From Nautilus pompilius (taxonomy: Eukaryota > Mollusca > Cephalopoda > Nautilida > Nautilidae), in NCBI GenBank assembly GCA_018389105.1, contig JACATO010001735.1, positions 1-64,000 of the forward strand: a stretch of DNA of 64,000 bases, given 5' to 3'. This document shows, one piece after another, positions 7,662 to 53,159 of the stretch (positions are counted from its first letter, which is position 1; every line of letters begins with the position of its first letter). The translations under genes were made by a program, and so were the position numbers. The notes beneath the pieces are model-generated. The model saw nothing but the letters and a program-made list of their open reading frames with translations. It made no database searches and was not told where the DNA came from.

Positions 7662-8994
7662 TCAACAGGGGTTGATCGCGCGGCCTGAGTACCTCTGGCG
7701 GGATTCTAACTTCTCCATTGTTGACGCTGATACCCACGGCAGCCATGCCGCCGCTGCGTACTCGACGGTCGACCTACCAGTGGCGATGTAGGTGGACCGC
7801 AGGGTGGTCTTCTCGTATCCCCAATCAGTTGACGCCAAGCACCGTAACGCTCCAGCCTGTTGCTTCATCTTGCTGCCGACAATTGATGCATGCAGGCCAA
7901 AGGTGAGCTGTCGATCGTACGTCACTCCCAGGAACTTCGGGTTTGGGTTGTACTTGATCTGTTGCCCGTTAAGGTGTAGGGTAGGGCGCCAACTAGCTTC
8001 GTGTCTGTTGGTGCTGAAGAAGGAGCATTCAGACTTTTGGGTCGATAGTTCCATCTTCCACTTGGTGCTCCAGTTCGTCACGCCGTCGAGGACCTTCTGC
8101 AGCTTCACCTCAGCAGTCCTCAGGTCAGCATCCTGTACCCATACTGCAACGTCATCTGCGAAGAGGCTGACTTGGGGGGCAATGTAGAAAAGAAACAGGA
8201 GCAGCGACAGGACCGACCCCTGTGGGACGCCTTGCTTGAACGTAACCTTCTTGCTCTTCACTCCGTCAAACGTCACCCAGTAGAGCCGATTCGACAACCA
8301 TGCTTGGACCCATCTGACCATGTGACTTGGGATGCCCTTTTGGGACATCTTCATCAACAGGGCATCTCTCCACACTTTGTCGTAAGCTCTCGAGTAGTCG
8401 ATCAGCGCCACCAGGGTCCGCTGCATTGGGGAGTGTTGGAAGCCATCACTTATCGATTGGGACATTCTGAGCAGTTGGTCTTCGGTACTACGGCCGTGGC
8501 GAAACCCCGCTTGGTTCTCTGTCAGGAGCTTTTTGCTTCGGTGAGATATCTGAGCCGGTTGGTGACAAGTCGCTCCATCGTTTTGCCTATTGTCGACGTT
8601 AGAGAGATTGGGCGATAGCTCTCCAGTTTTTGTAGGTCCTTCTCCCCTTCGGCACCGCTCGAATATCCGCAATTCTCCATTCTTGGGGGACTTTGGTGTT
8701 TGACCACGACTTGTTGAAGATCACCAAGAGCGTGGAAACTGCTACCGGACCTAAGTGGTGAAGTAGTCTCGGGTGGATCTGATCTGGTCCTGCTGCTTTC
8801 GTCGAGTTCAGGCTACGCAGGGCTGCTTTCACCTCTTCTAGCGTGAAGGCTTGACATTCTTCAGAATCCATTGACTCGCCCCTCAGTCGACTGTTTAAGG
8901 CTTTCTTCATCCCTCTCTCATGCTTTTCAATTTTGAGATTGCTCACGTCCCGATAGAGTTTGACAAAGCCATCTGCTTTTTGCTTTTTGCTCAC
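7662..8994 (-). pseudogene. Retrotransposon reverse transcriptase domain
   Basis: Three overlapping minus-strand frames together carry the RT blocks: AAGPDQIHPRLLHHLG, SYRPISLTSTIGKTMERLV, QAGFRHGRSTEDQLL, IDYSRAYDKVW with one catalytic Asp, QGVPQGSVLS, and SLFADD with the catalytic Asp pair. The longest frame (7,662-8,672) is 336 codons. Between QGVPQGSVLS and FADD the usual spacer is shortened: the INDL-type segment is largely missing. Frameshifts at about 8,600-8,700 split the N-terminal fingers from the palm. The copy is therefore degraded but fairly young-looking compared with the DNA transposon fossils in this window. Confidence 0.92.
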
Positions 8995-13653: not shown

Positions 13654-14613
13654 AACCTCACTTTTCGTGCTCTGTGTCAGGCCCTCAAATCTAACCTCCA
13701 CAGGAAGTCGTGAGTGATAATCGCCAATGTTATAGTTTTCTAGGGTTCATCCAACTTAAAATGTTCTGTTCCACGAGGATGAGGGAGACAGAGGAGGTCT
13801 CCATCTGCTTCAGACCGAGAGCAGAAGTGATTGTTGTGAACTGAGCTTCTTTCATCTGAAATAATTACCATATTCGGAATTTGTATCCTCGGAAACTTTC
13901 TCGGTCTGTCTGTACCTCGGTATTCTAGCCACCTGGTTTATTACTGGTGCCGTATTCTCTAATGTATCCTGTCATCATTGATCTCATCATTACAACAAGA
14001 TCGTTGATCCCATGACCCCAGACACCAGACCCCTCCGGTCCCCGGGGACCTCTGTGTCAGCCGAGGCGGTTCGTACAGGACGGACTCTCTTCCGTGTGAA
14101 CGGACCTTTGTGTTTACAGCGAGTATTTGGCCGGGGCTGCCTGTCGACCCCTCCCACCTGCCGTTAATTCTCTATAAGCAGCCACGGCCCACATAAATAA
14201 TTCGGTAGGTAAACAATAATAAAGTAAAGAAATAAATTATCCTGTTTGCGGGAGGAGTAGTTTCATGCACTAGGTCTCGGTGCCGTTCACACCTCTGAAC
14301 AGAGCTCACAGCTCCATCGTCTCGTCCACCTGATCCTAGGATTACGTCTGGTGTTTTCTCTATTGCAGCAGCATCGGGTTACACGGATGGTGATGGATGA
14401 ACCGTCCCGCATCTTCCTCTTCACGGAGATTAATGTAATTCTAAGAGATTGATGTAGGCACGAGTGTCGTACCTCACGGATACTGCAGGAGAAGTCGGCC
14501 CAGGGATGTCTAACGACCCTTATTCCTTACTCTTCTGTCTGCGCCCTCATCTCTCTCTCTTCCAAACCAGTTCTGGTCACATGTCTGCTCTGCCTTTGGA
14601 GTTCAATGATGAC
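13654..14613. repeat. Duplicated block E, copy 1
   Basis: This stretch matches 63,044-64,000 in direct orientation with few substitutions and short indels. The shared sequence begins at CTCACTTTTCGTGCTCTG and is still continuing when the window ends. I see no coding region in it. It lies just upstream of lectin locus A, so the second copy at the window end may precede another copy of that locus; this is inference. Confidence 0.9.
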
Positions 14614-15199: not shown

Positions 15200-15686
15200 A
15201 TAACGGGATGATCGGCCACCATCAGTGATTAGGTATCGATCTTTCTAGACTCCATGGAGATGTCTTAGAAGTTTGTGGGGGGAGAGGGAGAAAATTAACC
15301 CTTACTGGGAATACCTGTAAATGTGCTGAGGATATTAAACTGATAACAAAGAATCGTAGGCATAAACATCAACCTCATTTTAGCCAACTGGAATATAGAA
15401 GTCTCATATCTATTCTCCTGGCAGAGTTACCTCCTCCTACTTCAGGGTTCTTCCCGCGGACTAATTTACGGAAGTCGAATCAAAGTTGACCCTCACACGT
15501 CTGACATAATTCACGAGCTCCTCTCCACTACTGGAGAACTGGCTCCCTCATCCCTGATGATGACTTTCTGTCTGCTTTTTATGAGGTGAATCAATTTAAA
15601 TGTACGAGATGAAGATCGATTAAGTATGAATTTCTCTTACTATATCTCATTTTATCATAGAATCATCAAGAACTTGTCGAGGAGAA

Positions 15687-15687
<1 letters not shown>

Positions 15688-15748
<61 letters not shown>
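15688..15748. repeat. (AAT)n microsatellite at a rearrangement joint
   Basis: About twenty AAT units mark the left edge of the 3-kb stretch that is absent from copy B. Confidence 0.95.
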
Positions 15749-15749
<1 letters not shown>

Positions 15750-15972
15750 GATATTTTCTACTCTTCTTAGATTTGTGTTGTTTACCTTTCTGATGACCTG
15801 ATGTATTTCTGTCGAGGTCCGAGTCTCTGACATTTGGGATGAACTGGACCACAGTTTTTCTCTCTACATTTTGTAGAACCTGAGGACAAATTTAGCGAAC
15901 GGTCAGTGATGGGGAACTTACGGTGTTTTCTTACCTTTGTGCGTTAGAACTTTTCTAACTTAACAACAAGTA

Positions 15973-15977
<5 letters not shown>

Positions 15978-16015
<38 letters not shown>

Positions 16016-16092
16016 CTTATTATTTATTATTATTATTATTTATTAACTCATTTCAATACAAAGACAAACAGACGTAAATATATTTATTATTA

Positions 16093-16126
<34 letters not shown>

Positions 16127-16127
16127 G
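15978..16127. repeat. (ATT)n microsatellite cluster
   Basis: Three ATT-rich tracts (15,978-16,014, 16,018-16,045 and 16,081-16,127) are separated by short unique DNA. Confidence 0.9.
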
Positions 16128-16346
16128 TGGGACAGAGTTGGACAGGAAGGACCCCAGGTCCCGTTATTCCAGTCCCACCCACGTGTCAGCCTGGACCCGA
16201 TACATTTAAAGAGGAAGTCGGTCCCTGGACCCAGTCAATAGATCTGCCCGCTCGCTGCCATCTGACAGGACATCAGTCCCCCGGTGGCCGGGAGGTCTGA
16301 GCTTGGAATACAATGACACTGAAGAACAGCGCAACAAAGACGACAC

Positions 16347-16958
16347 CAGTTAGTAAATGTTTAGGGAAATAATGGGGTCATCATGTCGCAGACTTCTTGT
16401 CTCTCCACTGAATTTGTTATCACTGTTTTGGTATCTTAATGTTATTTAATACCAAACCGGATATTGTCTCAACGACTCGTTCCTTTACCGAAATCCTGGC
16501 TGTAAACACAAGGATCAGTTTACACCAAACTAAGTCAATCCAGGGTCGCCCCTTCTTTATTTACATACTGCAGGTCTCCCTAGAACGATGTCGGTGGAGC
16601 CGGAGAGCTCACCCGACAATACCTCCCTCCCTCTTCATCTGGAGCTGTAAGTCTCCCCTCCATGGACCCCGTCAGCGTCTGGTCAGTTGACGGTAAGGAA
16701 GAGACATTATTAGAGATATGAAACAAGAACCTCATCAATTTTCGTTATTAGTTCCTCCCATTTACCAGATTCTTCCTGGTGTCTTCTCTGTTGCTCTGTT
16801 CTTCAGCCAGGATTTCGCTAAAGGAGCGAGTCTTTGAAACAATATCCAGTTTGGTATTAAATAACAATAAGCTGCCAATTCAGTGATAACAAAGTCAGTG
16901 GAGAGACAGGAAGACAGCGACATGATGACCCCTATTATTTACCTAAACATTTACCAGC
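16347..16958. repeat. Inverted repeat (foldback), arms of about 157 bp
   Basis: The left arm 16,347-16,504 and right arm 16,804-16,958 are reverse complements with roughly 85-90% identity by eye, separated by a 300-base loop. Both arms contain GGGGTCATCATGTCGC, GTCTCTCCACTGA and GTTATTTAATACCAAAC in the same order. It could be a foldback/MITE-like element or a hairpin RNA precursor. It lies within the stretch missing from copy B. The ORF at 16,439-16,690 is a chance frame across it. Confidence 0.85.
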
Positions 16959-18109
16959 TCTACTCCATTTATTTAATCTGGAGAATTGTTGTACACCTCT
17001 ACCACCTGGCAGGTAAACAGCGTTCATCCTCAACAAGTCTGCTGCGATATCACAAAGTGTGAACTCCTCGTCTCGTTGTCAAAAAATACCTGGGATTGTG
17101 CTGAGGTCTGATCGCCTTTAGAACTCCGACAGTCGATTGTAATAGAGTAAAGATAAGCAGACAGAATATTTATGTCTCCTCCTGGCCAATGTCATGGAGA
17201 CAGTTCTACCTCACAAACTGCTAAGCTCGGCTTGTAGAAGAGAACCGGCGACTGTGAAGTTTGTACTCTCATCCTTCTGTCTGCCATCTCTAATAATCTA
17301 CTGGCTTCTGTTCAGGTATCTCCACATCAGGTCTCCTCCATCTTTTGATCAGCGACTACCTCCTGGAAGAAGAGAAGTACGTTTGATGAGATTCGTTTAC
17401 CGAGTTCAAGTTGCATCATCCTTCATTATCAAGGTTGTTTAGATGAAGAATCATTTTGCTGTATCTACAGCGGTAGATGAATTTCCCCTTCATAACAACT
17501 GAACTGAAGGGTTAATCACTTTTCCTCAGGCAGCAATAGAAGAAGTTGACGAGAGACTCGGTCAGCAGCAGAGCTGATGATGATAGCTAACATCGTGAGA
17601 GATGTCTCTCTGTCCGTTAGCTACACTTTTAAAAGACATATCGATATATCGTAACCAATATCTGATCGATACAATCAAGGTGGCCGAAGTTGATTAGGTA
17701 AATTTATTTGCATAAATACTTCATTTACTCTCGGGACAGAAGATTTCTGTGGATCTGTTGACTTTGATTTATTTACGCGGTCACGTGACAGACTTTAGAT
17801 TTTCATGTTCTAAATCCTATAATTTCCTTCCTAATTTGGATCTGTAGATCATCATCAGCAGGAAATATCGATAGGGAGGACAACGAGTCTTTTGACTGAA
17901 CAATTTGTCTATTTTGTGCAGGCAGGTATTTTAACCCTCCTACACTCCATTTCTCACCTTTATGCATCTTGTTTTTCGTTTAATTATTTTTTATATTTAA
18001 AAATCTCTGTGATCTTTAAAAGAAGCAGAAATATTAATATCGTGATATTTGCGAAGTTTGCTGTTCATTGAGCTCATTGGTTAGAACAAAGCAGATTTCA
18101 CCTGTTAAT
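16959..18109. other. No recognised feature
   Basis: I see no domain or RNA gene here. The 82-codon ORF at 17,194-17,442 has no recognised motif, and the segment has no partner in copy B to test it against. Confidence 0.5.
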
Positions 18110-18575
18110 GATTGTAAGACAGGTACCTCAGCCAGGTGGAACAGTAAATCTCGCCAATCTGTAATCTACTGATTGGGGGACATCTCACCTGTGGCTGGTG
18201 GAATGAATGTACGGAGACAGAACAGCAGGTAATTTTCTCTTATTCACTCGGAATTCCCTTTGACGTGAGGGCTGTGCACTAAATAGCTCGTGTGGGATCA
18301 AGGGGCTGCCTAATGTCACGTGATAAACATTAGTCTTGTTGATGAATGTAATATAGGTAAATTTTTTAATATTCCTCGTGGACAGAGAAAGTTCTATAAA
18401 TTTACATTAAAATTGTGATAAAAAATTGTTAATTTTAGTAGAATTGTTTATGCGACATTGCTCCGAAACCAACTTATTTTCAAATTAATCTCTTCACCTG
18501 GTACAGGTAGACTGATTACACCTGAACTTGAAGAGAAATCTCCGTTCATTCCATCATACTGGAGGTAACTTTCGA
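18110..18575. repeat. Diverged dispersed repeat, copy 2
   Basis: This is the partner of 13,056-13,345, sharing a common order of short conserved blocks interrupted by indels. It is followed by about 140 bases of unique sequence and then the (AAT)n tract where similarity to copy B resumes. Confidence 0.65.
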
Positions 18576-18717
18576 TGTTGTGCTGCTGAGGGTGAACACC
18601 TCAGGGTCCATTGGAAAGGGCCAACTTCCGGCCCTAAGTTCGGACTGAAATATAATTACATATTTCAAGATAAATTAAATATTTAAGAACCGTGTACATC
18701 ATCTAAGAATTTTCAAT

Positions 18718-18721
18718 AATA

Positions 18722-18762
<41 letters not shown>
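18718..18762. repeat. (AAT)n microsatellite at a rearrangement joint
   Basis: This tract marks the right edge of the 3-kb stretch absent from copy B. The matching tract in copy B is at 53,791-53,820. Confidence 0.95.
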
Positions 18763-19299
18763 TTAAGATTAAAATCTCGTTCCTGTTAATCTGTTGTGAA
18801 GTCTTTGGGTTAACAAAGAATGGTGGATGTTGGTAAAGAAGATGACAGAATAATGTCTCTTATATAAAGTACAAGAACGGACAGGACCCAAGGAAGTGTT
18901 ATTACAGGGGACACAACATGTTGTGACGTAAATACCCAGGGGACCCTGATCTTCTCGTTTACTGACCCCATCAGCTGAACCCGCCTTCTATTCCAGCTCT
19001 GGCGGAGAGACGGGAAGAAGAACTCAACATATCCAGCTGAGAAGATCAAGAGAATTTGATGCTCCTCAAATATTCATAATAAATCGGAACAGGACAATAA
19101 ATTAATATTCCCAAAGTAAAGACGACCGAACAAAATTATAATCCCCACTTCAATGTTTCCTTTGTTGTTGAAGTACCAAATGCCCTGATTTGACATCACG
19201 TGATCAAACCAAAGTCTGGCACCGCCCCAGCGAAAGTAACCGGATGAGGTCCCTTCTACCATCGACAATCAAACTTCCTTTTAAGGTGATGGCTGTAAC

Positions 19300-19393: not shown

Positions 19394-19995
19394 ATGTCTG
19401 TCTGCGACTTACATCTGGTCATCTTCTTAATCATCTACCTGTTTAACGGAAGATCGATAAGCGAAGAATCCCAGCTGAGAGTCGGTCAGAGACTCCTCCA
19501 GCTGGAAAACGGTTTGAACGAAATGCGACAGGAACACAGAGAGCAGCTGTCTGCCATCAGGCGGGAGCTGGAGGAGAAAAGTAGACAAATATTCAGGTTA
19601 AACACGGACTTGGAGACGTTTAAAAGATCAGCAAATAAGGGCAGCCAGGTGGTGGACGATCTACATCAGTGGACTGAGAACAAATCTGGTGGAGATGTTC
19701 CCAGATTTCACATCTTTAAGAGGCGGCCTAAACGGGACGTCTCTCTATCTAACGGAACTGGAGACAATCCAAGTTTGCTGGACCGTTTACAAAAGTCGGT
19801 ATTAAATAACACCCACTGGATTAACCAACTGTACTAGAGGGATTAAGGGCATTTATAACAGTATAGGGGAAGACGTTGAGATACTGTATGATCAGGCGGA
19901 TGACCACAGTTCAAAGATTATTGATCTGAATGCATCAGTTTTAGAAAATAGGCGTAACCTGACGACACTTGCACTAAGACTGGACTTGATTACAG
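19394..19995 (+). CDS. Gene A exon 1: signal peptide and coiled coil
   Basis: The ATG opens a hydrophobic signal peptide (residues about 1-20, core LVIFLIIYLF). Residues about 30-90 are Glu/Arg/Gln/Leu-rich with heptad spacing, a likely coiled coil. Sites NKS, NGT and NNT are potential N-glycosylation sites, and RRPKRD at about residue 111 is a furin-like basic motif. After NNTHWINQLY the frame stops at TAG: copy B has two more bases here and reads on. In a shifted frame coding continues through EDVEILYDQADD and LALRLDLIT to the donor ACAG/GTAGAT. Copy B is instead broken further downstream by an extra G. The matching start, signal peptide and coil in both copies make this exon convincing. 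Confidence 0.8.
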
Positions 19996-22900
19996 GTAGA
20001 TATCTACTTTATTATGCACCTAACTTTGCAAGTTAATCTTTGGAGCTCATTACCTGTGACAGGTATTGCCCAGTGTAGATCTCTTTGGTTGGTGACCTGT
20101 ACTTATCAGTGCTCTGACTCTTTCCGATGTGAGGCTGTCGATGGATGCTGACAACAGATAGAAACTTTAATTTTTGAAAATTTTAGTTTTTCAATGGATT
20201 TTAACGTTATGAATGCACATCTATAGGTGTGAAATGGTGGTTTGAGAAATATTAATATTACACTGACACCCACCTATCTTAATGTAGTCTGGGTGTCGGC
20301 TTGAAATTCACAATTCAGCCCTCAGGTCCATCTCTGTATCCAGGAATTTTAGAGTATCCTACATTCAATGACCCCCCTGTATCTTCCTTTTCTATCCTTT
20401 GAATACCTTCAGCCGCATAGATTATTATTTTACCTGTAACATATTTTTAAAATCCCATCTGATTAATTAGCTGCAGATTGAATATTTCAACTTCGTTTTT
20501 CAGAAATAGATTGTGGCCGACCGGCAGACCACGTTCTTAACAGCACCCTGACGGCTGTAAACGGAACCACGTGGAGAACTGAGGCCACCTACACATGTGA
20601 CAAGGGACATAACTACGTGTCTGGAAGCAACGAGTCCTGGTGTTCAGGAAACGGGAAATGGACAAAACAGATATTTTCTGCCAACGTATCTATTCCTTTG
20701 TTTTCTTTACTTTGAATTCCAACCCTCAGTTTTTTGTATTTATCTTTTGTTCTCTTATTACTTATTTATTTTCGTGCTGCCTTCATTTCCATTTTACGGA
20801 ACCAAAACCACAAAAGTCTGCTTATGGACTTCGTCTCTCCATCATGTAATTAACAATTTAAATATTTTTAAGTGAACTGGAAAATAGTTGTGTTTAAAGT
20901 ATTAATATGGCGATATTAAATGACTGAATTGTATTTCTTTTCTTAAACTTTACTTGATTTAACTTGAAGAAATTTATCACGCGACAATTTCCTGTCTTCT
21001 ACAAAAGTAATCATTCTACACACTGCACATCACTGGATCTCACTGTCTATACACAGCTTGGGAAGTTAAATATTTATCTATCCTGAAATTAGTTTATTTC
21101 ATTACTGTTTATTATTAATAATTTTCTCTTATTTTTATAAAGCAAACTGCTGAAATTGAAGCCAACACGGATAAAAAAAATCATTAGTTATAACAAATGA
21201 CATCTCTGTTTGGCCATAGTTGTATTGTAGTAATTTTAAAATCTCTAAAAATTACAAGCACCTGACTTAGGTCTTCTATCTTGTAACAGTAATTACGTCG
21301 AATAGTTTCACAGATTTTCATACTGAATTAAATATTTCCAAATAATTAATTGAACTTCAAAAGAAGAATGGCAGCGACGGCTCACTAAATTAAACATAAA
21401 AATAAATTTAACGACAATTTGTAGTTGAGGGACATTAAACTTAAAAAAGGTTCTTATAAGAGTCAGACATCAGATATTTCGGATCTCATCGTACAAGAAG
21501 AGGAACTGTACAGAGGAAACAGTCTGCCTTTTCTAATGTCGATCAGTCAACACCACAAACTCGTAAATACTTTTATATTTTTATTCTGTTATTCTTCAAA
21601 TGTAGTAGAATGTATTTTTAGACGAACCGATTTAATATAATATAGATTCTAGTATAAATATTATTCTGAAAATTTACTCTGAAATTATGGTTTACAGTGA
21701 CGATTCTGCCACAATATTAGTTACAGGTCCACTTGATCATCATTTAATCACTTCATTGTTACTTTAATTGTGGACCTCCTTTACCCCGTTATTGTTCAGT
21801 TGGTGAATAAACAGATCTACCTACGGTACTGATTGATTTGACAGATTGATTTTCACAAATATCTGAGGTCACAACTGATTGATTTCATACTTTCATTTTC
21901 GTTCTGCAGTAATAGATTGCGGCCGACCGTCAGAGCACGTGCTCAATAGTACACTGGCGGCAGTGAACGGAACCACGTGGAGAAGTAAGGCCACCTACAC
22001 CTGTGACAAGGGACATAACTACGTGGCTGGAAGCAACGAGTCCTGGTGTTCAGGAAACGGGAAATGGACAAAACCAGATATTTACTGCCAACGTATTATT
22101 CCTTTGTTTTCTTTTCTTTGAATTCCAACGGAATTTTTGTATTTATCTTTGTTCTCTATTTATTGTTTATTTTCGTGCTGCCTTCATTTCCATTTTACGG
22201 AACCAAACCACAAAAGTCTGCTTATGGACTTCGTTTCTCCATCATTTAATTAACAATTGAAATATTTTTATCTGAACAGGAAAATAGTTGTGTTAAGTAT
22301 TAATATGGCGATATTAAATGGACTGAATTGTATTTCTTTTCTTAAACTTTACTTGATTTAACTTGAAGAAATTTATCACGCGACAATTTCCTCCTTCTAC
22401 AAAAGTAATCATTCTACACACTGCACATCACTGGATCTCACTGTCTATACACAGCTTGGGAAGTTAAATATTTATCTATCCTGGAAATTAGTTTATTTCA
22501 TTACTGTTTTATTATTAAATAATTTTCTCATACTTTTATAAAGCAAGTTGCTGAAATTGAAGACAACACGGATAAAAAAAATCATTAGTTATAACAAATG
22601 ACATCTCTGTTTGGCCATTGTTGTATTGTAGTAATTTTTAAAATCTCTGAAAAATTACAATCACGTGAATTAGGTCTTCTATCTTGTAACAGTAATTACG
22701 TCGAATAGTTTCACAGATTTTCATACTGAATTAAATATTTCCAAATAATTAATTGAATTTCAAAAGAAGAATGGCAGCGACGGCTCACTAAATTAAACAT
22801 TAAAAGCAAATCTAACGACAATTTGTAGTTGAGGGAAATTAAACTTAAAATAAGGTTCTTATAGGAGTCAGACATCAGATATTTCGGCTCTCATCGTAAA

Positions 22901-24695
22901 GAAGAGGAACTGTACAGAGGAAACAGTCTGCCTTTTCTAATGTCGATCAGTCAACACCACAAACTCGTAAATACTTTTATATTATTATTCTGTTATTCTT
23001 CAAATGTAGTAGAATGTATTTTTAGACGAACCGATTTAATATAATCCATAGATTCTAGTATAAATATTATTCTGAAAATTTACACTGAAATTATGGTTTA
23101 CAGTGACGATTCTGCCACAATATTAGTTACAGGTCCACTTGATCATCATTTAATCACTTCATTGTTACTTAATTGTGGACCTCCGTTTTACCCCGTTATT
23201 GTTCTGTTGGTGAATAAACAGATCTACCTACGGTACTGATTGATTTGACAGATTGATTTTCACAAATATCTGCGGTCACAACTGATTGATTTCATACTTT
23301 CATTTTCGTTCTGCAGTAATAGATTGCGGCCGACCGTCAGAGCACGTGCTCAATAGTACACTGGCGGCAGTGAACGGAACCACGTGGAGTAGCGAGGCCA
23401 CCTACACCTGTGACAAGGGACATAAATACGTTTCTGGAAACAACAAATCCAGTTGTTCAGGAAACGGAAAATGGACCAAACCGATATTCCTGCCAATGTA
23501 GGTTTTGAAATTTGAAATAAATTGTGAATCTTTCTCCATTTCTCGTTTTGGATCTTTAACAAATTATTTAATTAAATTATGAACTAACAATAATTAACAT
23601 GTAATTAACTGATTTCCGAGATCTCTCCTGTGGATGCAGTTCTCCCAGTTTGAGGTATGAAAGCTGTTATCTGTTCATAGTCTACATCTAACGAAATTCT
23701 GCTGGAGATCTTCATGATTTCCTCCTGTATTTAAGTTTCTGCTGCTACGGTGGAGGAGAAACAGAAAAGGCTCCTTTATTTCTGTCGAGGTTGTGTCCCT
23801 CAACTTTCTGGGGAATCGGCCCCGGGACATTTTACCTCTTATCTATTAGGGGAAAACCGGTGAGAATTCCAGCGGAAGGTCAGTCAGGTCGGGAACTGAC
23901 GATAACAACATTGAGAAATCTCGGGGCTTTGTTAACCAGTAATAATAATAATAATAATAATAATATTAATAATAATAATAATAATTAATCTTCTTTAGAT
24001 ATGTATATTTTTCATATTATTGATCTACCGACGATGAACTGATTTATTGGTGAATCACTTGTATACGGCAGAAGAATATTCCTACACCGATCGATCGATC
24101 GATCAGTCTGTCAATAACCGATGTTATTCGATCTGTTACAGACGGGGCTACAGGTTCAGCGACAGGGCTCAACTCTGTACCGTCCGTACAGTGACAGGGG
24201 TCAGTGGAGGTCGTGGACTTCAGCAGCCGAGACCTGCAGGGACGAGGGAGGGACCCTGATCTCCTCAAAATATCCCCTCAGAAGAGAACTGGTCGACTCC
24301 CTCATCAGGGAACATGGAACATGTGAGTGTAAGAAGACTGCTTCATGTTGCTATGATACCGTCTCAGGGTATCTGCACTCCTCTCCACCCACTTTGCATG
24401 ATTGACAGGTGAGAACGGGAATGGGCGGGGTCGACGACATTTGTTTGTTGCCCCATGTAAACAAATGACTGTTGTCATGGTAACAGTTGTTTTCTTGTTT
24501 TCAGGGTCGTTCTGGGTCGGTTGTCTTAAGGAGGCAGGAAGATGGGTCTGGACTGACGGTACAGAGGTGGACAGGACCGGATGGGGCCCGGGTGACCCTG
24601 ACCCTTGGGACGGCTGTTGTTATCAGTATCGATCTCAGTTGAGGGGTCTGCCCTGTGATGATCCCGGACCTTTTATTTGTGAGCTGCGGCCGTAG
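19394..24695 (+). CDS. Lectin gene A: secreted coiled-coil / sushi x3 / C-type lectin-like protein
   Basis: Predicted exons are 19,394-19,995, 20,504-20,685, 21,910-22,092, 23,317-23,497, 24,142-24,322 and 24,505-24,695 (stop TAG at 24,693), with AATAAA signals at 24,795 and 24,802. Sushi exon borders are all phase 1, so single sushi exons can be added or lost without changing frame. The product would have a signal peptide, a coiled-coil neck, sushi modules and a terminal lectin-like head. This layout resembles secreted pattern-recognition proteins, but its ligand and role are not shown. As written, frameshifts in exon 1, sushi 1, sushi 3 and the first lectin exon prevent a full product: it is either a recent pseudogene or carries assembly indels. 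Copy B is in inverted orientation at 50.3-53.2 kb and decayed copy C is at 30 kb. Confidence 0.75.
20504..20685 (+). CDS. Gene A exon 2: sushi/CCP domain 1
   Basis: After the acceptor TTTTTCAG the frame reads IDCGRP, YTCDKGH, SWCSGNGKW, giving three of the four sushi cysteines in the usual spacing. One C is missing in the ACAAAACAGAT stretch compared with the other copies (ACAAAACCAGAT), so the final P-D-I-x-C-Q is out of frame. The exon is therefore 182 rather than 183 bases. The donor is CAAC/GTATCT. Confidence 0.85.
20603..23412. repeat. Tandem 1.4-kb sushi-plus-intron units (two units)
   Basis: Unit 1 is about 20,603-22,005 and unit 2 about 22,006-23,412. Each runs from the middle of one sushi exon, through a 1.22-kb intron, to the middle of the next. 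The two introns are near-identical apart from small indels. Copy B has a single such unit. The unit edges fall inside the conserved string TGTGACAAGGGACATAA. Confidence 0.92.
21910..22092 (+). CDS. Gene A exon 3: sushi/CCP domain 2 (hybrid exon, intact)
   Basis: The exon is 183 bases, phase 1 at both ends, and encodes a complete sushi module with four cysteines: IDCGRPSEH, YTCDKGHNY, SWCSGNGKW and DIYCQ. Its 5' half matches sushi exon 3 of the same gene, and its 3' half (from CATAACTACGTG onward) matches sushi exon 1. It is the only sushi exon of copy A that is open throughout. Borders are TTCTGCAG/TAATAG and CAAC/GTATTA. Confidence 0.9.
23317..23497 (+). CDS. Gene A exon 4: sushi/CCP domain 3 (frameshifted at its end)
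   Basis: The exon encodes IDCGRPSEH, YTCDKGHKY and SSCSGNGKW. It then lacks two bases within ACCAAACCGATATTCCTG relative to copy B, so the last cysteine falls out of frame. Borders are TTCTGCAG/TAATAG and CAAT/GTAGGT. It is followed by about 640 bases of intron, including the (AAT)n tract where similarity to copy B stops. Confidence 0.85.
23939..23985. repeat. (AAT)n microsatellite at the A/B duplication edge
   Basis: Similarity to inverted copy B ends inside this tract. The matching tract in B is at 49,883-49,906. Confidence 0.95.
24142..24322 (+). CDS. Gene A exon 5: first half of the C-type lectin-like domain
   Basis: The 3' part reads QWRSWTSAAETCRDEGGTL, then LRRELVDSLIREHG. This is the CTLD block W-x-x-A-x-x-x-C-x-x-x-G-G-x-L plus helix 2. 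The first part (GYRFSDRAQLC) is in another frame: one base appears missing at the CTCTGTACCG stretch near 24,173-24,180. The acceptor is taken as GTTACAG/ACGGGG and the donor as ACAT/GTGAGT. The 5' border and phase are the least certain in this gene because of the frameshift. Confidence 0.7.
24505..24695 (+). CDS. Gene A exon 6: second half of the C-type lectin-like domain and stop
   Basis: The exon starts after TTGTTTTCAG in phase 1, joining to give WSFWVGC. It continues with RWVWTDGTEVDRTGW, GDPDPWDGCCYQ and PCDDPGPFICEL, then the stop. The paired C-terminal cysteines and FICE ending are diagnostic of a CTLD. GDPD stands where sugar-binding CTLDs have EPN or QPD, and the WND calcium motif is not present, so classical calcium-dependent sugar binding is doubtful. 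An extra Cys (CC) precedes YQ. Confidence 0.85.
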
Positions 24696-25544: not shown

Positions 25545-28500
25545 GTCCTTTTTCATCTTCCCCTCTTCCTTTTCCTTATTTTTTATTTCTCTTTCTATTC
25601 CCCTTCTCATCTCCCTTTTTTCTCTTCTTTTCCTTTTCTTTCTTCTTCTCTTTATTCCTCTCTCTCCTCCGTCTATGTTTTTCCTTTCTCTCTACTTCCC
25701 CTATTTTCCTCTCTTCCCCCTCCTCTAATCATCCATAACGTGTGAGACAGTGATGAAGTCAGCCCCTCTTACACAAACTGCCAGATTTCCGGAATATTTC
25801 ATCCCTAATTACTCTCTGTGTGGCTCACGGCATTAAAACCTTGAAATAAGGACACAGGTGAGACAGTTTACCTCACCTGCCATTGACAACGAAACAGCAG
25901 CATTATTTTATAACCTCAACTATATTAATTATCGGCTCTCGCTCGCAGGAGAGTTTACCTGACTGTTACAGGTGAGACAGGTATTCCAACTTGATTAGAA
26001 TGAGAGAAACATTCAGACACAGATAAAGGAAAACGTTCTGAGAGAATCAGGACTGGAATACGACAAAACCCCTCCCGATCAGTGTATTTGCGGTGTCTAG
26101 TAATATAATGGAGGGAGTCAGGTGTTTGGTCGGTCAGCGGATCTGCTGAAGATCAGTTTCCGAAGCCGGACGGTCACAGACAGGTGACCTCAATGGAAGA
26201 CCCCGATAGTAGAACTGACCGGCTCAGTTTTGGCACTAAACTAAACTACAGCCACTGAAATCAGTTAATGGGGGGGTGGGCTACAGTGGTGACAGAAACC
26301 AGTAGGGAATTATTGTTTTCTAGTTACCTTCTAACTGATCATCTGAGAAAGAAGGGAGCAGAGATTAGACTGACCCCTATTTAGCTCCACCTGGTGACAC
26401 CTTTCCGAGAAAAGGGCTGATTTTATTAATGCAGAAACTTGTCTCTGTTTCGATGAACAAAACCAAAATATTCGCTAATTCGAATCCTTTAACATTTCCT
26501 CCCTCAATCATCTGGGATATCAAACATGGCCGGCCGCACCCATCCCCTAATTCTGCTTGTTTTCCTGAAATCTGTGTGATCCCAAACCACTCTCGAGCTG
26601 GAATGATTCTCGGTACAGTTCCAGCCTCCGACCTCCCGGGGGGTCACGACCCCCAGTTGGAGAACCACTGGGTAGCGTAAAGAATACACGGTCGACTCGA
26701 CCAGTCCGCTTGACAGGCGACACTTGTGGAATACCCGGCTGATTAACGAGGCTTAGGCCGCCTACAGGGCAAAGGGTTAACCGTCGATTATGCGGAGTGT
26801 CCCCTAGTAAGGCCCTATAATTATATATATATGTAATATTCCGATTGTTTGAAGCTTGATGGATCTCCTGTTAATAGTTTTCTGCATCTTTATGGACGTG
26901 AAGCTACAACAAGGAAAGTGATGTAAAAACAAATACTTCATCCGGGTCTCATCTCCCTTATTTGGACTCACAGATTGGAAACATTTCCAATCATTCATTA
27001 AAAATCAAAGACAAAAGAATTTTTACCTTCCTATTATTTCCGATTCTCTTAATGATCAGGAGAATAATTTGTGTTGACAAATCTTCGTACCATCCATTTG
27101 AAGGCCCCTTATGTTCCTTTTCTCGATATGTGACGGAATAATATTTATCTAATGTCGTTTCCCACGTTACTCGGTCTTCTGTATCAGAAATAATAACGGT
27201 CGGTCAAATAACCGACAAACCAGGTTTTGTTGTTTAACGATGTAAACATCTTCAGCAGCATGGAAGATACCAGCAGCTGATCCTTTGTTAAGGGAGGTAA
27301 CGTGGACCAAAAGGAAGATATTACCACACGTAATTCGATAGCAGGGTTTAAAGGGTAAATGTTTGGTTGGTTCATGTAAACAACCATTTCACCTCCAAAG
27401 ATGGGGATTAAAACCGATGATTTCGGGGAAGATGTAAAACTGTGGAGTTTACACCCAGAGTTTTTTGATGATGTAAACGATTCCTTGTTTTTTCTTATTC
27501 TTAATAAAAATCTGGACAAAGGTGATGACCTCTGTGCACTAATTCGCTTGTGTTTGTGGTTTACCTGGTCTCCAATATCCACGTGTTACCTGTCCTCGGC
27601 CATATTAACAGGTATCGGCGCCGTTTTACAGCAAATAAGGAAATAGACGGCCCTTACCCACATCAGAAGCTCCTGCTGTCCTGTATATTAATGTGTATGC
27701 AGATATTACTGATTATTATCGACTTCTGCTGATCTGAAATATGTAATAAATCAGCTCCATGTTCAGACGGTCCTCAGCTTTCCTTCAATAAGTAGTAACC
27801 GTACTCTTCCTTCTACCTGTTACTGTCCGGGTGTCGCTTTCTCCCTGATTACAGAAACAAATGTTTGTTTATATTTCATTCCTTGTATTAAATAAACTTT
27901 TCCTATGAACGCCGAGGATAATTTCCGACTTCTCTTGTTTCTAGTACAGTTGGTTTTCGATGGCTTTTTATCATGGAGGGGAAATAACTCTGTGCAGAGT
28001 TCTCCCTCCTTACAGTGTCTGACAGTATGATGAACAACATGGAAAAGTATAGTGAATTATAGTAGTATTATTACTGTTATAGTTATGAAAACATTACTGA
28101 AATGTATACAATTTGACAAAACTTAAATTTATTTACAAAATTTCAGTTAAAAAGTTGTTTTTTGGAAAATAAATGCATTTCCACGATCATCAGCCATCAG
28201 TATTTGTAAAGTTGCTTTTCAGTCGTCTTAAGTCCATGAAGGTCTTTCCTTTGTTGATATATTTCAGTTAATTCAGTCTTCAGTACTGTACAGAGATTAG
28301 ATTTGTATGTTTTAATTATTCATACCTTAAACCTGGTTTCATTTAATATACAATCACTAATAATAGTAATTAGCACTTGATAGTACTCATGCCATCTGTT
28401 CCATTTAATTGTCAGAATGTTGTCTTTAATAAATTCAAGTTAATAATTGTAGAAAACAAAGATCAATCATAATAAAGACAACTTAGTGAGTTACTGGCTT

Positions 28501-29381
28501 CATTTATTTTATACAATATTATATTTTACTAACAAATACCTTTCTTCAACATGTACACTCATAAATACCTAGATAGAGTATAATATTTGCTGTAGGTAGG
28601 TAACTGACAGAATAGTTACTGTAGTTTACTTCATAGAAGTCATCTGCAGTTGTTTATCTCTGTAGTCGTCAATTCTATGAACGATTCAGGCTCCAGTCTG
28701 GCTGTCAGAGGAACATCATCAGCAGTATCATCTTCAGTTACAAAGGGCAGCGATGTAAGATTATCTCCATATATGTAAATACTTCTAACACCTTTTATGG
28801 AAAAGTAATTCATAGATCTTTTGGTTTCCTGAGAATATTAACAGAGCGAAGGGGTTTGAATAATTGGCTTTGGTCAGTGGCAGATAGGTTCAGGTTCTGC
28901 AGAACTTTCCTGCCCACCCAGGTCTCCTACCCTGCCAGGCGACATCAGCAGATCAGTTCCGTCATCATTCATTCCTCTGTTTCTATTAAAATCTCTAATT
29001 TCTGCGATTTTACAAATGTTTTTTTAATCTTCAGCCTCCTCCTGGGATGATTAGATTAATTCAGCCTCACATGTCACTTATGGTGGAAATGCAGGAGGGC
29101 AGATCGAGTCCCTCCATCTCTTTATCAAAATAAATCTTTGGTTTGTTTTCTCTTCTGTTTCACAAATAAAACTGAGGAAAGTCGCTCTTAATTTTAATTG
29201 TTCCACCATTTGAGATAAAAAACCAAAGATTACCTTTCTCTGTTGGTTCCTGTCAGTCTGCAGACCTTTGCTGACAGCAGGAATTTGTTTTCTGTAAATT
29301 GATAGAAATTGTGTAATTTCCCTACAGGATAATTTGGTAATAAACAGAATGGAATCTTCAGCTGTAGGAGACCACAGGATA
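25545..29381. repeat. Spacer duplication, copy 2 (D2)
   Basis: This is the direct partner of 1-3,817. It lies between the 3' end of lectin gene A and decayed copy C, so the unit 'lectin gene plus spacer' appears to be what was tandemly duplicated. No coding region is supported. Confidence 0.9.
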
Positions 29382-30650
29382 AAATAGAAAAACCTGAAAC
29401 ATCAATCAGCATTTACAATTTAAACTCAGGTTTTCCTTAATAATATTGTAATAATTTCTGACAAAGAGCGGGCACCTGACTTTGGTCGTCTATCGTATAG
29501 AGAATTGAGTCGAATATTAGCAGCAAATTTGCTAATCGAGGAATCGAGTATTGGCCGAATATTTTCCCAATCATTAACTCAACCTTTGAATGGACGGATA
29601 GCGGAGAAGGTGAATGGAATTAAATGGATTTGTACTAGAAATACGATTATTGTGAATCTACAGGTACGCTTCATTAGACTTTAAATAAACATTTTATAAA
29701 AGGGAGATGATCAATGGTTCTGCTGTCATCGCAGAAGCAGAAGAAATGTACAGAGAAAATGGTTTGTCTTTTGTAAGTCGATCAGTTAACAACTCGGATA
29801 CTTTTTAATTTCTATTTCGTTGAGCTGCAGACGAAATAGAATGAATCTTTGAAAAGAGAAAATGTAATGTGCAGATTTTAGTATAAATATCACTGAGAAT
29901 ATTTATTACTACAATATATTATACTGGTTTGACAGTCTGATATATCAAGATATTTAAACCCTTATCTGATTGATTTATTGCTGATCGAACTTTTCAACTT
30001 CGCTCTACAGTAATCGATTGCGGCCGACCATCAGAACACGTGATTTATAGTACTCTGACGGCTGTGAACGGAACCACGTGGTGTGTGAGGTCACCGACAC
30101 CTGTGACAAGCGACATAACTACGTGTCAGGAACCAACAAGTCCTTTTGTACCAAGAAAGGACATTGGTCTCGACCAGATATATCTTGTGGATGTTTGTTG
30201 TTCTCTGTTATAAATTTGAAAAGTTGTCACACCTGTCTCATTTATTCATCTTAGACATTTTATTGTTTTCAGGTGAGTCTTGGGTCGGCTGTCGTCAGAA
30301 GGGTGGACGTTGGGTGTGCATGGATGGTGCGGAGGTGGACAGGACCAACAGGTGGCCCTTGGGATGACTGTTGTTACCAACATCGATCTAGGTTCTCGGG
30401 TTATCCCTGTCGTTATCCCCGATATTTTATTGGTGAACCGCTACAGGAGTCCGCCTCGTTCAGGATGATAAATGTCCCCTTGCTCTCCCCTTAATTACCC
30501 TGAGTCCACAACGGCCTGGAAAATGGGAAGAAACAATAAAGTGAGATAATAACTGGTTTTTCGTCGTCTTCCCTGTTGTTCTCTTTAGATTTCTCTTGTT
30601 GGTATCGTCACGATGACGTCATAACGTGATCATCACCCCTCGAGGATACA
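29382..30650 (+). pseudogene. Lectin pseudogene C (sushi and lectin-domain remnant)
   Basis: An intron-like stretch (29,450-30,000) is a diverged match to the sushi introns of gene A. A sushi exon follows after ACAG at 30,010 (IDCGRPSEHV, AVNGTTW) with a one-base loss just after TTW. Only about 75 bases later, after TTGTTTTCAG, comes the second lectin exon (30,274 on): SWVGCRQKGGRWVCMDGAEV, then a frameshift, then DDCCYQHRSRF. The first lectin exon and most of its flanking introns are missing. An AATAAA at 30,535-30,540 and a 3' flank matching gene A follow. The W-to-C change in the RWVC position and the frameshifts mark it as dead. Confidence 0.85.
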
Positions 30651-36714: not shown

Positions 36715-37440
36715 TAGGCTGAGCAAATGTTGTCGACAGTGGTAGCCTGGTATTTTTATACACTCAGATGTTGGGAAGGAACACTCATTTCAAGTATTTA
36801 ATTCTACAAAAACCGTATCTATGGCAAACATCCTCCTTGCCTCTAAAACAGATGGATACTGCAAAGTGCAAATTGAGACACAGGGTGTAGTAGTATATAA
36901 AGACATTGAGCTATCAGTATTGCCTGGCCTGTGTTCTGATGTGATTTTAGGTCAAGATTTTCAAAGCCAACAAGAAAGTGTGACAATGAAGAGTGCATAC
37001 CATCAAGTGACTATTTGTGCTGAAGACAAACCCTATACTGTTTTCGAGACTAGTGAGCACTTTACCAGTTTACTAAAATTCCATATGGGGTTTCTAATGG
37101 TGTAGCATGTTTCCAACGCATCATGGATACCTTCATTAAAGACAATAATCTTGATGGAAACATATGCTTAATTAGACAATACAACGATTTGTGGGGTGTC
37201 GCAAGAGGAGCATGATTTTAATCTGAACAGATTTCGAGTGGCTGCAGAGAAAGTAAATATCACTTTCAATGAAGACAAAAGCATCTTTTCAACAAAGAAA
37301 CTCTGTATTTTGGGGTATGTGACGAGAATGGTGAATTACCACCTGATCCTGAATCTTCTGAGACCTCTTAAAGGATTGCCGATACCCAGTGATATGAAGA
37401 TGCTTCGTCGTTGTCTTGGACTCTTTGCATACTACTAGAA
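36715..37440 (+). pseudogene. Gypsy protease and reverse transcriptase remnant
   Basis: VDSGS at about 36,730 matches the aspartic protease active site (D-[ST]-G), and the 36,821-37,105 frame continues with ELSVLPGLCSDVILGQDF, the protease C-terminal block. SAYHQV and FHMGF follow as RT blocks. The place of the catalytic YxDD reads stop-L-D-N before TTICGVSQEEHDFN, so the tyrosine and second aspartate are lost. The thumb region (ILGYV, LRRCLGLFAYY) is at 37,196-37,438. Confidence 0.85.
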
Positions 37441-37498
37441 CTGGATCTATAACTATTCAGAGAAAGTCCACCCGCTTATTACTACCACAACCTTTCCA

Positions 37499-38137
37499 AT
37501 GTCAGATGAAGCACAAAGGGCACTTACACTAATCAAGGATGATATTATACAATCAGTAGTACAGGCTATTGATGAAGATTTAGCATCTGAGGTCGAGACA
37601 GAACGCATCAGACAATGCCATAGCAGCTACGTTAAACCAAGCTGGACGTCCCGTGGCATTCTTCTCTCGTACTCTCCAAGGATCGGAACGACAGTTGAAA
37701 AGGAAGCCCAAGCTATCATAGAGTCAGTTGGACATTGGCGGCATTACTTAACTGGAAGGCACTTTACCATGAACACTGATCAGCTCTCTGTGAGCTATAT
37801 GTTTGACAAGACCAGAATAAAGAAGATTAAGAACGACAATATCGTGCGTTGGAGGGCAGAACTTTCTTGTTTTGACTTTGACATTGTTTATCGTCCTGGC
37901 AAGGATAATGTCTCAGCTGATGCCCTTTCAAGGTCATATTGTGCTTCCCTTATTTCTAGTGAAGGTCACTTGCAAAGTATTCATGAGTCATTATGTCTCC
38001 CTGGAGTAACACGCATGTACCATTTTGTTAGGTCCGGAATCTTCCTCATTCTTTGGAAGAGGAAAGAAGGGTCACAGAGTATGTACAAGCCGAACAGGCC
38101 CATCTCATTAAAGCTACTCAACCTTTCGAACGATTAA
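37499..38137 (+). pseudogene. Gypsy RNase H and linker
   Basis: A 212-codon frame carries the RNase H C-terminal half: EKEAQAIIESVGHWRHYLTG, FTMNTDQLSVSYMFD, WRAELSCFDFDIVYRPGKDN and SADALSR. The N-terminal half, including the TDAS-type block (present as an out-of-frame ETERIRQC stretch near 37,600), is shifted, so a frameshift lies around 37,600-37,690. Confidence 0.88.
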
Positions 38138-44321: not shown

Positions 44322-49851
<5,530 letters not shown>

Positions 49852-49882
49852 GTGAAGTAGTAATTCCCGCGATCTGGGTTAT

Positions 49883-50352: not shown

Positions 50353-50537
50353 ATTGGCAGGAAATATCTGGTTTGGTCCATTTTCCGTTTCCTGAACACC
50401 TGGATTTGTTGTTTCCCCCGAAACGTATTTATGTCCCATGTCACAGGTGTAGGTGGCCTCGCTACTCCACGTGGTTCCGTTCACTGCCGCCAGTGTACTA
50501 TTAAGCACGTGCTCTGACGGTCGGCCGCAATCTATTA
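50353..50537 (-). pseudogene. Copy B sushi exon 2 (frameshift and lost acceptor)
   Basis: It corresponds to sushi exon 3 of gene A. IDCGRPSEHVLNS, YTCDMGHKY and VSG are open, then two extra G bases shift the frame so the third and fourth cysteines are lost. The AG acceptor is CG here. It retains the two bases missing from A near the exon end. Confidence 0.85.
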
Positions 50538-53159
50538 CGCAGAACGAAATAAGTATGAATATCACTAAAAAGATAAGCATAATACAAATCACGTCCTTCT
50601 CGTCCTGAAGTCAATCTATTCAATCTCAATTTTCGCGTCAATCGTTTATTCTCCAAAGTAAGAAATCAATCAGTTGGACCTCAGATATTGTGAAAATCAA
50701 TCTGTCAATCATGTACCGTAGGTAGATCTGTTTATTCACAACAGAACAATAACGGGGTAAAGGAGTCAACAATTTAAAATACAATGAAGTGATTAAATGA
50801 TGATCAAGTGGACCTGTAACTAATATTGTGGCAGAATCGTCACTGTAAACCATTAATTTTCAGAGTAAATTTTCAGAATAATATTATACTAGAATCTATT
50901 AATTATATTAAATCATTTCGCCTAAAAATACATTCTACTACATTTGAAGAATAACAGAATAAAAATATCAAAGTATTTAGGAAATTCTGGTGTTGACTGA
51001 TCGACATTAGAAAAGGCAGACTGTTTCCTCTGTACAGTTCCTCTTCTTGTACGATGAGAGCCGAAATATCTGATGTCTGACTCTTATAAGAACCTTATTT
51101 TAAGTTTAATGTCGCTGAACTACAAATTGTCGTTAAATTTATTTTTATTGTTTAATTTAGTGAGCCGTCGCTGCCATTCTTCTTTTGAAGTTCAATTAAT
51201 TATTTGGAAATATTTAATTCAGTATGAAAATCTGTGAATCTATTCGACGTATTCGTACTTACTGTTACAAGATAGAAGACCTAAGTCAGGTGCTTGTAAT
51301 TTTTTAGAGATTTTAAAAATTACTACAATACACTATGTGCAAAACAGAGATGTCATTTGTTATAACTAATGATTTTTTTACCCGTGTTGGCTTCAATTTC
51401 AGTAGCTTGATTTATAAAAATAAGAGAAAATTATTTAATAATAAAACAGTTATGAAATAAACTAATTTCCAGGTTAGATAAATATTTAACTTCCCAAGCT
51501 GTGTATAGACAGTGAGATCCAGTGATGTGCAGTGTGTAGAATGATTACATTTGTAGAAGGCAGGAGATTGTCGCGTGATAAATTTCTTCAAGTTAAATGA
51601 AGTAATGTTTAAGAAAAGAAATACAATTCAGTCATTTAATATCGCCATATTAATACATTAAACACAACTATTTTCCTGTTCAGATAAAAATATTTAAATT
51701 GTTAATTACATGATAGAGAGACGAAGTCCATAAGCAGACTTTTGTGGTTTTAGTTCCGTAAAATGGAAATGAAGGCAGCACGAAAATAAATAAGTAATAA
51801 GAGAACAAAAGGAAAATACAAAAAACTCAGGGTTGGAATTCAAAGTAAATAAAACAAAGGAATAGATACGTTGGCAGAAAATATCTGGTTTTGTCCATTT
51901 GCCGTTTCCTGAACACCAGGACTCGTTGCTTCCAGACACGTAGTTATGTCCCTTGTCACATGTGTAGGTGGCCTCACTTCTCCACGTGGTTCTGTTTACA
52001 GCCGTCAGGGTGCTGTTAAGAACGTGGTCTGACGGTCGGCCACAATCTATTTCTGAAAACGAAGTTGAAAAATATTCAATCTACAGCTAATTAATCAGAT
52101 GGGATTTTTAAAATATGTTACAGTTAAAATAATAATCTATGAGGCTGAAGGTATTCAAAGGATAGAAACAGAAAGATACAGGGGGATCATTGAATGTGGG
52201 ATAATTCTAATATTCCTGTATACAGAGACGGACGTGAGGGCTGAATTGTGAACTCCAAGCCGGCACCAAGACTACATTAAGATGGGTGTCAGTGTAAGAT
52301 TAATATTTCTCAAACCATTTCACACCTATAGATGTGTATTCATAACGTTAACATCCATGAAAAATTAATTTTCAAAAATTAAAGTTTCTATCTGTTGTCA
52401 GCATCCATCGACAGCCTCACATCGGAAAGAGTCAGAGAACTGATAAGTACAGGTCACCAACCAAAGAGATCTACACTGGGCAATAGCTGTCACAGGTAAT
52501 GAGCTCCAAAGATTAACTTGCAAAGTTAGGTGCATAATAAAGTAGATATCTACCTGTAATCAAGTCCAGTCTTAGTGCAAGTGTCGTCAGGTTACGTCTA
52601 TTTTCTAAAACTGATTGCATTCAGATCAATAATCTTTGAACTGTGATCATCCGCCTGATCATACAGTAACTCAACGTCTTCCCCCTAAACTGTTATAAAT
52701 GCCCTTAATCCCTCTGTAGTACAGTTGGTTAATCCAGTGGGTGTTATTTAATACCGACTTTTGTAAACGGTCCAGCAAACTTGGATTGTCTCCAGTTCCG
52801 TTAGATGGAGAGACGTCCCGTTTAGGCCGCCTCTTATAGATGTGTAATCTGGGAGCATCTCCACCAGATTTGTTCTCAGTCCACTGATGTAGATCGTCCA
52901 TAACCTGGCTGCCCTTATTTGCTGATCTTTTAAACGTCTCCAAGTCCCTGTTTAACCTGAATATTTGTCTACTTTTCTCCTCCAGCTCCCGCCTGATAGC
53001 AGACAGCTGCTCTCTGTGTTCCTGTCGCATTTCGTTCAAACCGTTTTCCAGCTGGAGGAGTCTCTGACCGACTCTCAGCTGGGATTCTTCGCTTATCGAT
53101 CTTCCGTTAAACAGATAGATGATTAAGAAGATGACCAGATGTAAGTCGCAGACAGACAT
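50353..53159 (-). CDS. Lectin gene copy B: signal peptide/coiled coil and two sushi exons
   Basis: Exons on the minus strand are 52,554-53,159 (signal peptide and coiled coil), 51,870-52,052 (sushi, 183 bases, fully open) and 50,353-50,537 (sushi, broken). Exon 1 reads past the point where copy A stops but is frameshifted downstream by an extra G (at IYNSLGG) and again near the NA-ISF stretch. The second sushi exon has two extra bases (TTTCGGGGGAAAC against TTTCTGGAAAC in A), and its acceptor reads TTCTGCG/TAATAG, lacking the A of AG. No lectin exons follow before the chitinase joint. It is therefore a truncated copy, probably non-functional unless the indels are assembly errors. Confidence 0.78.
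51870..52052 (-). CDS. Copy B sushi exon 1 (intact)
   Basis: A complete sushi module: IDCGRPSDHVLNS, YTCDKGHNY, SWCSGNGKW, DIFCQ. It corresponds to sushi exon 1 of gene A but keeps the base that A lacks, so it shows the undamaged form of that exon. Phase 1 at both ends. Confidence 0.88.
52554..53159 (-). CDS. Copy B exon 1: signal peptide and coiled coil
   Basis: Near-identical to gene A exon 1, with the same ATG, signal peptide, coil, glycosylation sites and RRPKRD motif. Substitutions include Val to Met (QVMDDL), Phe to Leu (RLHIYKRR) and Thr to Arg in the coil. It reads YYRGIKGIYNSL where A has a stop, then breaks at an extra G. The donor is ATTACAG/GTAGAT. Confidence 0.8.

Follow-up and report, generated by a model that had tools for sequence, protein, structure and literature searches.

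A hybrid sushi exon shared by a large, recombining C-type lectin gene family of Nautilus pompilius

The window, i.e., the whole stretch of 64,000 nucleotides that was analysed (C1657:1-64000 in the searched genome of 727.6 Mb and 2,558 contigs), was found to contain a gene with three sushi exons and two C-type lectin exons (gene A), an inverted, truncated copy of it (copy B) and a diverged relative (gene C), with the following parts:

19394..19995, plus strand: gene A exon 0, whose N-terminus is hydrophobic and which also encodes a charged, heptad-like stretch; as assembled, the frame breaks close to the end of the exon
20504..20685, plus strand: gene A sushi exon 1 (E1 type), 182 nt; that of copy B is one base longer (183 nt)
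20686..21909, plus strand: gene A intron i1, which clusters with i1 of loci L009 and L010
21910..22092, plus strand: hybrid sushi exon E2 (H type), 183 nt, open, left part E3-type and right part E1-type
21966..21982, plus strand: putative crossover interval, a 17-bp tract in which E1 and E3 are identical, flanked by E3-type 21,965 and E1-type 21,983
22093..23316, plus strand: gene A intron i2, which clusters with i2 of L009 and L010 and not with gene A i1
23317..23497, plus strand: gene A sushi exon 3 (E3 type), 181 nt, two bases short
24142..24323, plus strand: gene A first C-type lectin exon, one base short at one run compared with all 19 other aligned loci
24508..24692, plus strand: gene A second C-type lectin exon, which holds the stop codon; start set by the AG ending the intron
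29,388-30,480: gene C, a diverged relative with one sushi and one lectin exon; frame disturbed as assembled
30012..30194, plus strand: gene C sushi exon, used as outgroup for polarisation
50354..50537, minus strand: copy B sushi exon 2 (E3 type); past it, the match to gene A stops at 49,884, before the lectin exons
50538..51869, minus strand: copy B intron, nearest to i1 of L014 or L011 over approximately its first kilobase
51870..52052, minus strand: copy B sushi exon 1 (E1 type), 183 nt
52554..53158, minus strand: copy B exon 0; frame broken as assembled

Using Pfam profiles, E1, E2, E3 and the copy B exon B1 scored 30.5, 32.2, 33.6, and 34.1 bits, respectively, against PF00084 (cut-off 20.7; the queries for E1, E3 and B1 were frame-limited and lacked the last residues), and the translated hybrid exons inspected as examples contained four Cys. 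PF00059 was detected on 24,498-24,692 (29.6 bits, cut-off 22.6, covering 41-106 of the 107 profile positions); by itself, gene A's first lectin exon matched no Pfam family. Exon 0 of gene A, which matched no Pfam family above cut-off, was read by eye as a signal peptide or anchor plus a coiled coil; unlike this exon, exon 0 of L010 is open. The product of the family would be a secreted or anchored recognition lectin. The homology of copy B to gene A spans 53,818 to 49,884 on the minus strand, without lectin exons. A GH18 chitinase-like gene (46,972-49,857, plus strand; PF00704 with 69.6 bits for one open frame, remaining exons read by eye) ends approximately 25 bases away from where copy B is truncated. 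Elsewhere in the window, retroelement open frames (reverse transcriptase, PF00078; RNase H-like, PF17917) were found at 7,662-8,720 (minus strand) and 37,439-38,134 (plus strand), and a short tandem repeat region with shifted copies 86-87% alike was found at 43,665-43,885.

The middle exon E2 was compared with its neighbours at 20 diagnostic sites that are fixed between the E1 type and the E3 type and were chosen via copy B without using E2. Over these sites E2 reads 3333333333-11-3-1111111, i.e., E3-like on the left and E1-like on the right, as the earlier note on this DNA had described. A single switch leaves one misfit site, which was equalled in 25 of 200,000 site shuffles; the sites are not scattered along the exon. 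The introns agree with the mosaic, also as proposed: the left part of E2 and its upstream intron resemble those of E3, and the right part and the downstream intron resemble those of E1. E2 is a true mosaic of its two neighbours and not a product of chance. The best switch lies inside the 17-bp tract at 21,966-21,982 that is common to both exon types. A junction after ACACCTGTGACAAGGGACATAA had been proposed earlier, and this placement could not be upheld: a switch after the ACACC site leaves two misfits, at the E1-type positions 21,983 and 21,986, neither of which the note had listed, and its sole support over the earlier tract is the E3-like base at 22,001, which is polymorphic.

Screening of the genome with E2 as query gave 293 candidate places, of which 40 were scored and the other 253 were left unscored, so that the count of hybrid exons is a lower bound. 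All 20 scored places with at least 94% identity to E2, the window's own included, were hybrid exons. Two queries combined showed that at least 56 loci on 47 contigs bear these exons, some of which may be haplotypes of one locus and of which the unfetched ones were read at the sushi match only; contigs with two or three copies approximately 25-130 kb apart were present. The loci typed numbered 35 (gene A and copy B in the window, L009-L028 and L049-L061, but neither gene C nor the small duplicate loci L001-L008), and since they were picked by similarity to E2, the shares given here are biased and are not those of the whole family. The hybrid junction was found at 19 of these 35 loci, on 18 contigs, in 20 hybrid exons. 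Fifteen loci were E1-E3, 14 were E1-H-E3, one was E1-H-H-E3, two were E1-H, two were H-E3 (one of them, L025, cut by a contig end) and one, L061, a cut stretch, was E1 only.

At the nine sites in alignment columns 10-55, all 20 hybrid exons were E3-type. Positions 21,983 and 21,986 (columns 73 and 76) were each E1-type in 19/19 readable hybrids and E3-type in 32/32 E3 exons. The E3-like base at 22,001 (column 91) was found in 13/20 hybrids and the E1-like base in 7/20; this site is not diagnostic, because it is polymorphic within exon-1-type exons themselves, where 9/33 have the 'E3' base and 24/33 the other. Likewise, column 130 was E3-like in 11 hybrids and E1-like in nine, with polymorphism among exon-1-type exons (7/33), and a single E3-like base was seen among hybrids at column 115. 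The shared junction would have a single origin. Rather than a local event, the E2 hybrid is a feature of long standing in a large lectin gene family that is still recombining.

The breakpoints of the duplicated stretch lie at homologous positions of paralogous units, and the sushi unit in gene A has a constant length (a period of 1,406/1,407 bp), as in tandem duplication by unequal crossover. The earlier note had attributed E2 to one unequal crossover in a two-sushi gene. The hybrid exon and a crossover-type event inside the exon hold, and a single mispaired crossover is the most likely origin of E2; its placement in gene A was not supported, since introns cluster by position across loci (see below). 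No single-sushi gene with an E1/E3 fusion was found among the 35 typed loci, the single E1 exon of L061 lying in a cut stretch; joins were seen as H-E3 in L020 and as E1-H in L016.

Intron trees were built from 36 and from 48 introns, and 13 loci have both i1 and i2 in the tree. Gene A, L009 and L010 were found to cluster by i1 (93/94; 99/96 in the 36-intron tree) and by i2 (100/100). The same was shown for L017/L022 (100/99 and 100/99), for L011/L014 (100/100 and 95/88) and for L013/L023 (100/87, and 99/90 with L025). In the 48-intron tree, in which 20 of the 45 inner branches (deeper order) are open, i1 and i2 of one locus were sisters in none of the 13 loci. A clade of a locus's own i1 and i2 was rejected by the AU test in the three of these 13 loci that were tested (gene A, p = 0.018; L017, p = 7e-5; L011, p = 0.013). 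Clustering by position across loci indicates that duplication of the unit most likely came first and copying of these genes later. As judged from these trees, the unit duplication most likely predates gene A, and the three-sushi genes were most likely copied as such; concerted evolution could also produce clustering of introns by position.

A rival reading is a duplication inside gene A after the split of A and B, with B in the ancestral two-sushi state. It agrees with the organisation of B (E1-E3, one intron) and with a comparison of A and B only, polarised with gene C as outgroup: eight shared sites joined unit 1 and unit 2 of A, one joined unit 1 and B, and six joined unit 2 and B, five of the last lying in the right half of the exon, i.e., the hybrid's E1-type part. 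For the intron alone the numbers were 7, 0, and 1 in the same order of pairs. The grouping of A's two units as sisters excluding B was set aside after the 36- and 48-intron trees and the AU tests. As an outgroup, gene C is distant and rich in gaps; the test that used it was judged weaker and gave way to the 48-intron tree. The identical junction in 20 hybrid exons from 19 loci, the clustering of A's i1 and i2 each with other loci, and the nesting of B with three-sushi loci in two separate stretches make a duplication private to gene A very unlikely.

The 5′ (exon 0) region of copy B clusters with L011 (96/96), inside L011/L014 (100/99), and its intron clusters with L014 i1 (97/76), inside L011/L014 i1 (100/100). 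For the intron that follows the last sushi exon, the tree had no starred branch and is uninformative on B. As the relatives L011 and L014 both have three sushi exons, the simplest reading is a loss of the hybrid exon and one intron from B. B has two sushi exons and one intron (E1-E3), as reported earlier, and the part of that claim by which it still keeps the two-sushi ancestor was not supported, given that three-sushi loci enclose both its 5′ region and the greater part of its intron in the trees; by these tree positions, copy B is probably no relic of a two-sushi ancestor. At the 3′ end of its intron, an unmatched stretch of approximately 86 nt (about 50,560-50,650) lies beside the second exon. 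This stretch had no match in any fetched locus, and it may be a scar of the loss of the unit.

A single clade of all 15 two-sushi introns was rejected by the AU test (p = 0.0007), which shows that two-sushi genes have more than one history. Most introns of the E1-E3 loci (15/35 typed) fall outside the hybrid groups, so most E1-E3 loci, and with them most two-sushi loci, may be ancestral; among the two-sushi loci, B and L028 alone look secondary.

A very recent exchange separates the three-sushi locus L018 from the four-sushi locus L019. These loci showed no differences in exon 0 (0/604) or in the first and second sushi exons (0/183 each), and five differences over approximately 2.85 kb of near-identical DNA (L018 2,354-5,204). 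Just upstream of this part lies a patch of differences at 2,176-2,353, and dense differences begin at 5,205, a sharp breakpoint approximately 840 bases into intron 2. Past 5,205, L018 continues to E3, and L019 continues with a second hybrid exon, a third intron and E3. The split between three and four sushi exons in this pair is one recent intron exchange, one unit out of register, in either direction. In L020 the first base of exon 1 is joined to the hybrid, and in L016 the hybrid is followed by the last intron; these two loci look like further exchange products with joins at exon edges. L026 is without E3, by deletion between introns.

Patches such as that of L018 versus L019 at 2,176-2,353 resemble gene conversion, and the nearest intron neighbours shift along the intron length; E2 might on these grounds be a pre-existing third sushi exon partly overwritten by its neighbour. 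However, the whole 1.2-kb intron is duplicated as well, the switch in the exon tracks the identity of the flanking introns on both sides, one tandem duplication covers exon and introns without a second event, and a non-hybrid middle exon was found in none of the 14 E1-x-E3 loci. Conversion is therefore a quite unlikely origin of E2. The position of the junction in a tract of 17 bp that is perfect in both exon types would also be expected from replication-based template switching at this tract, with no meiotic crossover. Ordinary recombination would account for the L018/L019 pair and for the large number of near-identical copies. Template switching, though less improbable than conversion, is regarded as unlikely, and a crossover is the presumed physical mechanism.

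As a whole, we consider it highly probable that the family arose by an ancestral crossover inside an exon, which gave a three-sushi gene that was spread by segmental duplication and later altered by unequal exchanges, with B as a probable loser. In the ancestor, two copies of a two-sushi lectin gene would have mispaired, sushi exon 2 against sushi exon 1, and recombination would have occurred within the 17-bp identical tract in the exon. The product would have gained one 1.4-kb unit, consisting of a hybrid exon (left half from exon 2, right half from exon 1) and one intron, and because the borders are phase 1 and the exon has 183 nt, this would be one whole sushi module. The three-sushi gene would then have been multiplied by segmental duplication in blocks of more than 10 kb, and later unequal exchanges in exons and introns would have removed or added the 1.4-kb unit, to give two-, three- and four-sushi genes; the direction of each of these later gains and losses is presumed. 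Copy B probably lost one such unit.

The claim that phase 1 borders keep the added module in frame is true of E2 and of four open paralogues and not of gene A as assembled, in which the three sushi exons have 182, 183, and 181 nt. Gene A has frame-breaking indels in exon 0, E1, E3 and its first lectin exon, and those of copy B lie elsewhere; they would be either decay or assembly error. Three of 22 loci examined were incomplete, and 4 of the remaining 19 were open from Met to stop: L010, L013 and L018 with three sushi exons and L019 with four. None of the five two-sushi loci readable end to end (L016, L020, L026, L027, L028) was open. The indels of 1-2 bases at different places in A and B could be uncorrected long-read errors, and haplotypes or paralogues might likewise have been falsely joined to give the third sushi exon. 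With the hybrid present at 19 loci on 18 contigs, expansion of one locus by assembly is unlikely; the flanks of these loci differ, and the four loci named above are open end to end, which leaves an assembly artefact very unlikely as the source of the hybrid.

Average pN/pS values were calculated as simple pairwise averages rather than as a formal test of selection, after exons with any indel not a multiple of three were dropped. The values were 0.42 for exon 0 (n = 8, 13 dropped; the L013 exon 0 that was kept reads locally unlike the others), 0.59 for E1 (n = 17, 3 dropped), 0.49 for H (n = 15, 5 dropped), 0.17 for E3 (n = 10, 10 dropped), 0.76 for the first lectin exon (n = 14, 6 dropped) and 1.07 for the second (n = 13, 7 dropped; leave-one-out 0.98-1.64). 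These values suggest that the hybrid module is kept much like other sushi modules and that change in the lectin loop exon is either unconstrained or actively driven. The second lectin exon (24,508-24,692; 19 fetched loci) was found to be the most variable part of the gene: 15 of the 19 loci showed 86-91% identity to A, and the other four 75, 93, 96, and 99%, compared to 92-98% in introns. Its loop region contains in-frame differences of 3 and 6 bases between loci.

Depending on the locus, flanks were found colinear with those of gene A within the range of approximately 13 to 29 kb, with differing insertions and gaps. For the flank segment 26,000-26,600, 95 candidates were detected in the genome, of which 40 were scored and showed 96-100% identity. 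The spread of the family looks like repeated segmental duplication of large blocks. A compact mobile element was rejected as carrier: the flanks are colinear far past the gene, with many indels and no common end seen. AAT arrays (15,686-15,748, 18,715-18,765, 23,940-23,987, 49,884-49,907, and 53,791-53,820) lie at several block ends or joins, including the outer end of B at 49,884 and, in B, L011 and L014, the place where about 15.7 kb is joined to about 18.7 kb. The approximately 3 kb at 15,749-18,714, which lie in A between two AAT arrays and are missing in B, L011 and L014, contain an inverted repeat of about 156 bp (16,353-16,508 with 16,797-16,954). The downstream flank of gene A recurs at the start of the window as a direct repeat of 3.8 kb (1-3,822 and 25,547-29,387; 92.6 and 94.7% identical), and a second direct pair was found at 13,656-14,613 and 63,043-64,000.

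Duplication of modules within a gene by unequal crossover is known from human haptoglobin Hp2, the repeats of complement receptor 1 and the kringles of apolipoprotein(a). The nautilus family resembles these systems in that mispaired module-coding repeats add whole modules in frame, and differs from them in that the exchange point falls within the exon coding for the module, leaving a hybrid exon that can still be traced, and in that the product is found at 19 loci. The Sp185/333 genes of the purple sea urchin are likewise clustered, similar genes with segmental duplications edged by short tandem repeats and a mosaic second exon (PMC5103432); in the accessible part of that account no sushi or lectin domain is described, and the repeats are GAT and GA, compared to AAT at some joins only in the nautilus family. 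Expanded C-type lectin repertoires, some with sushi domains, are described for bivalves (PMC10140915), and one of 81 genes for Nautilus pompilius (PMC8257504). These are also large lineage-specific families, and sushi and lectin are combined in bivalves; the parts of the two accounts that were consulted mention neither hybrid exons nor gene copies that differ in their number of sushi modules. The fester gene of Botryllus schlosseri (PMC3549757), an invertebrate recognition gene, also has a sushi exon and intragenic recombination. It has, according to the sections consulted, one sushi exon (exon 5), with diversity from alleles and alternative splicing. Literature searches yielded no paper on nautilus that treats both C-type lectins and sushi domains, and none that brings together two or more of the topics unequal crossing-over, hybrid exon and complement control protein.

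The process behind the hybrid is of a known kind; what stands out is that a single genome holds such a range of its products. In most cases, gain of modules by unequal crossover has to be inferred from old, blurred repeats. Here, genes with two, three and four modules occur together, with a shared hybrid junction located to within 17 bases and the very recent L018/L019 pair, whose members differ by one module. This comparison also shows how a local reading may misplace or misdate such an event: the two copies in the window suggested a fresh event with B as the ancestral form, and the 35 loci point the other way. Tentatively, the family may represent a recombination-driven recognition repertoire, in which unequal exchange would set the number of sushi spacers (2, 3 or 4) and the lectin half, whose second exon gives no sign of purifying selection, would be reassorted independently. 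An example of lectin reassortment is L019, which consists of the front of L018 and the lectin end of another gene, nearest to that of L024 among the fetched loci. With these forms side by side, it becomes possible to test directly, step by step, how an animal lectin family gains and loses modules.
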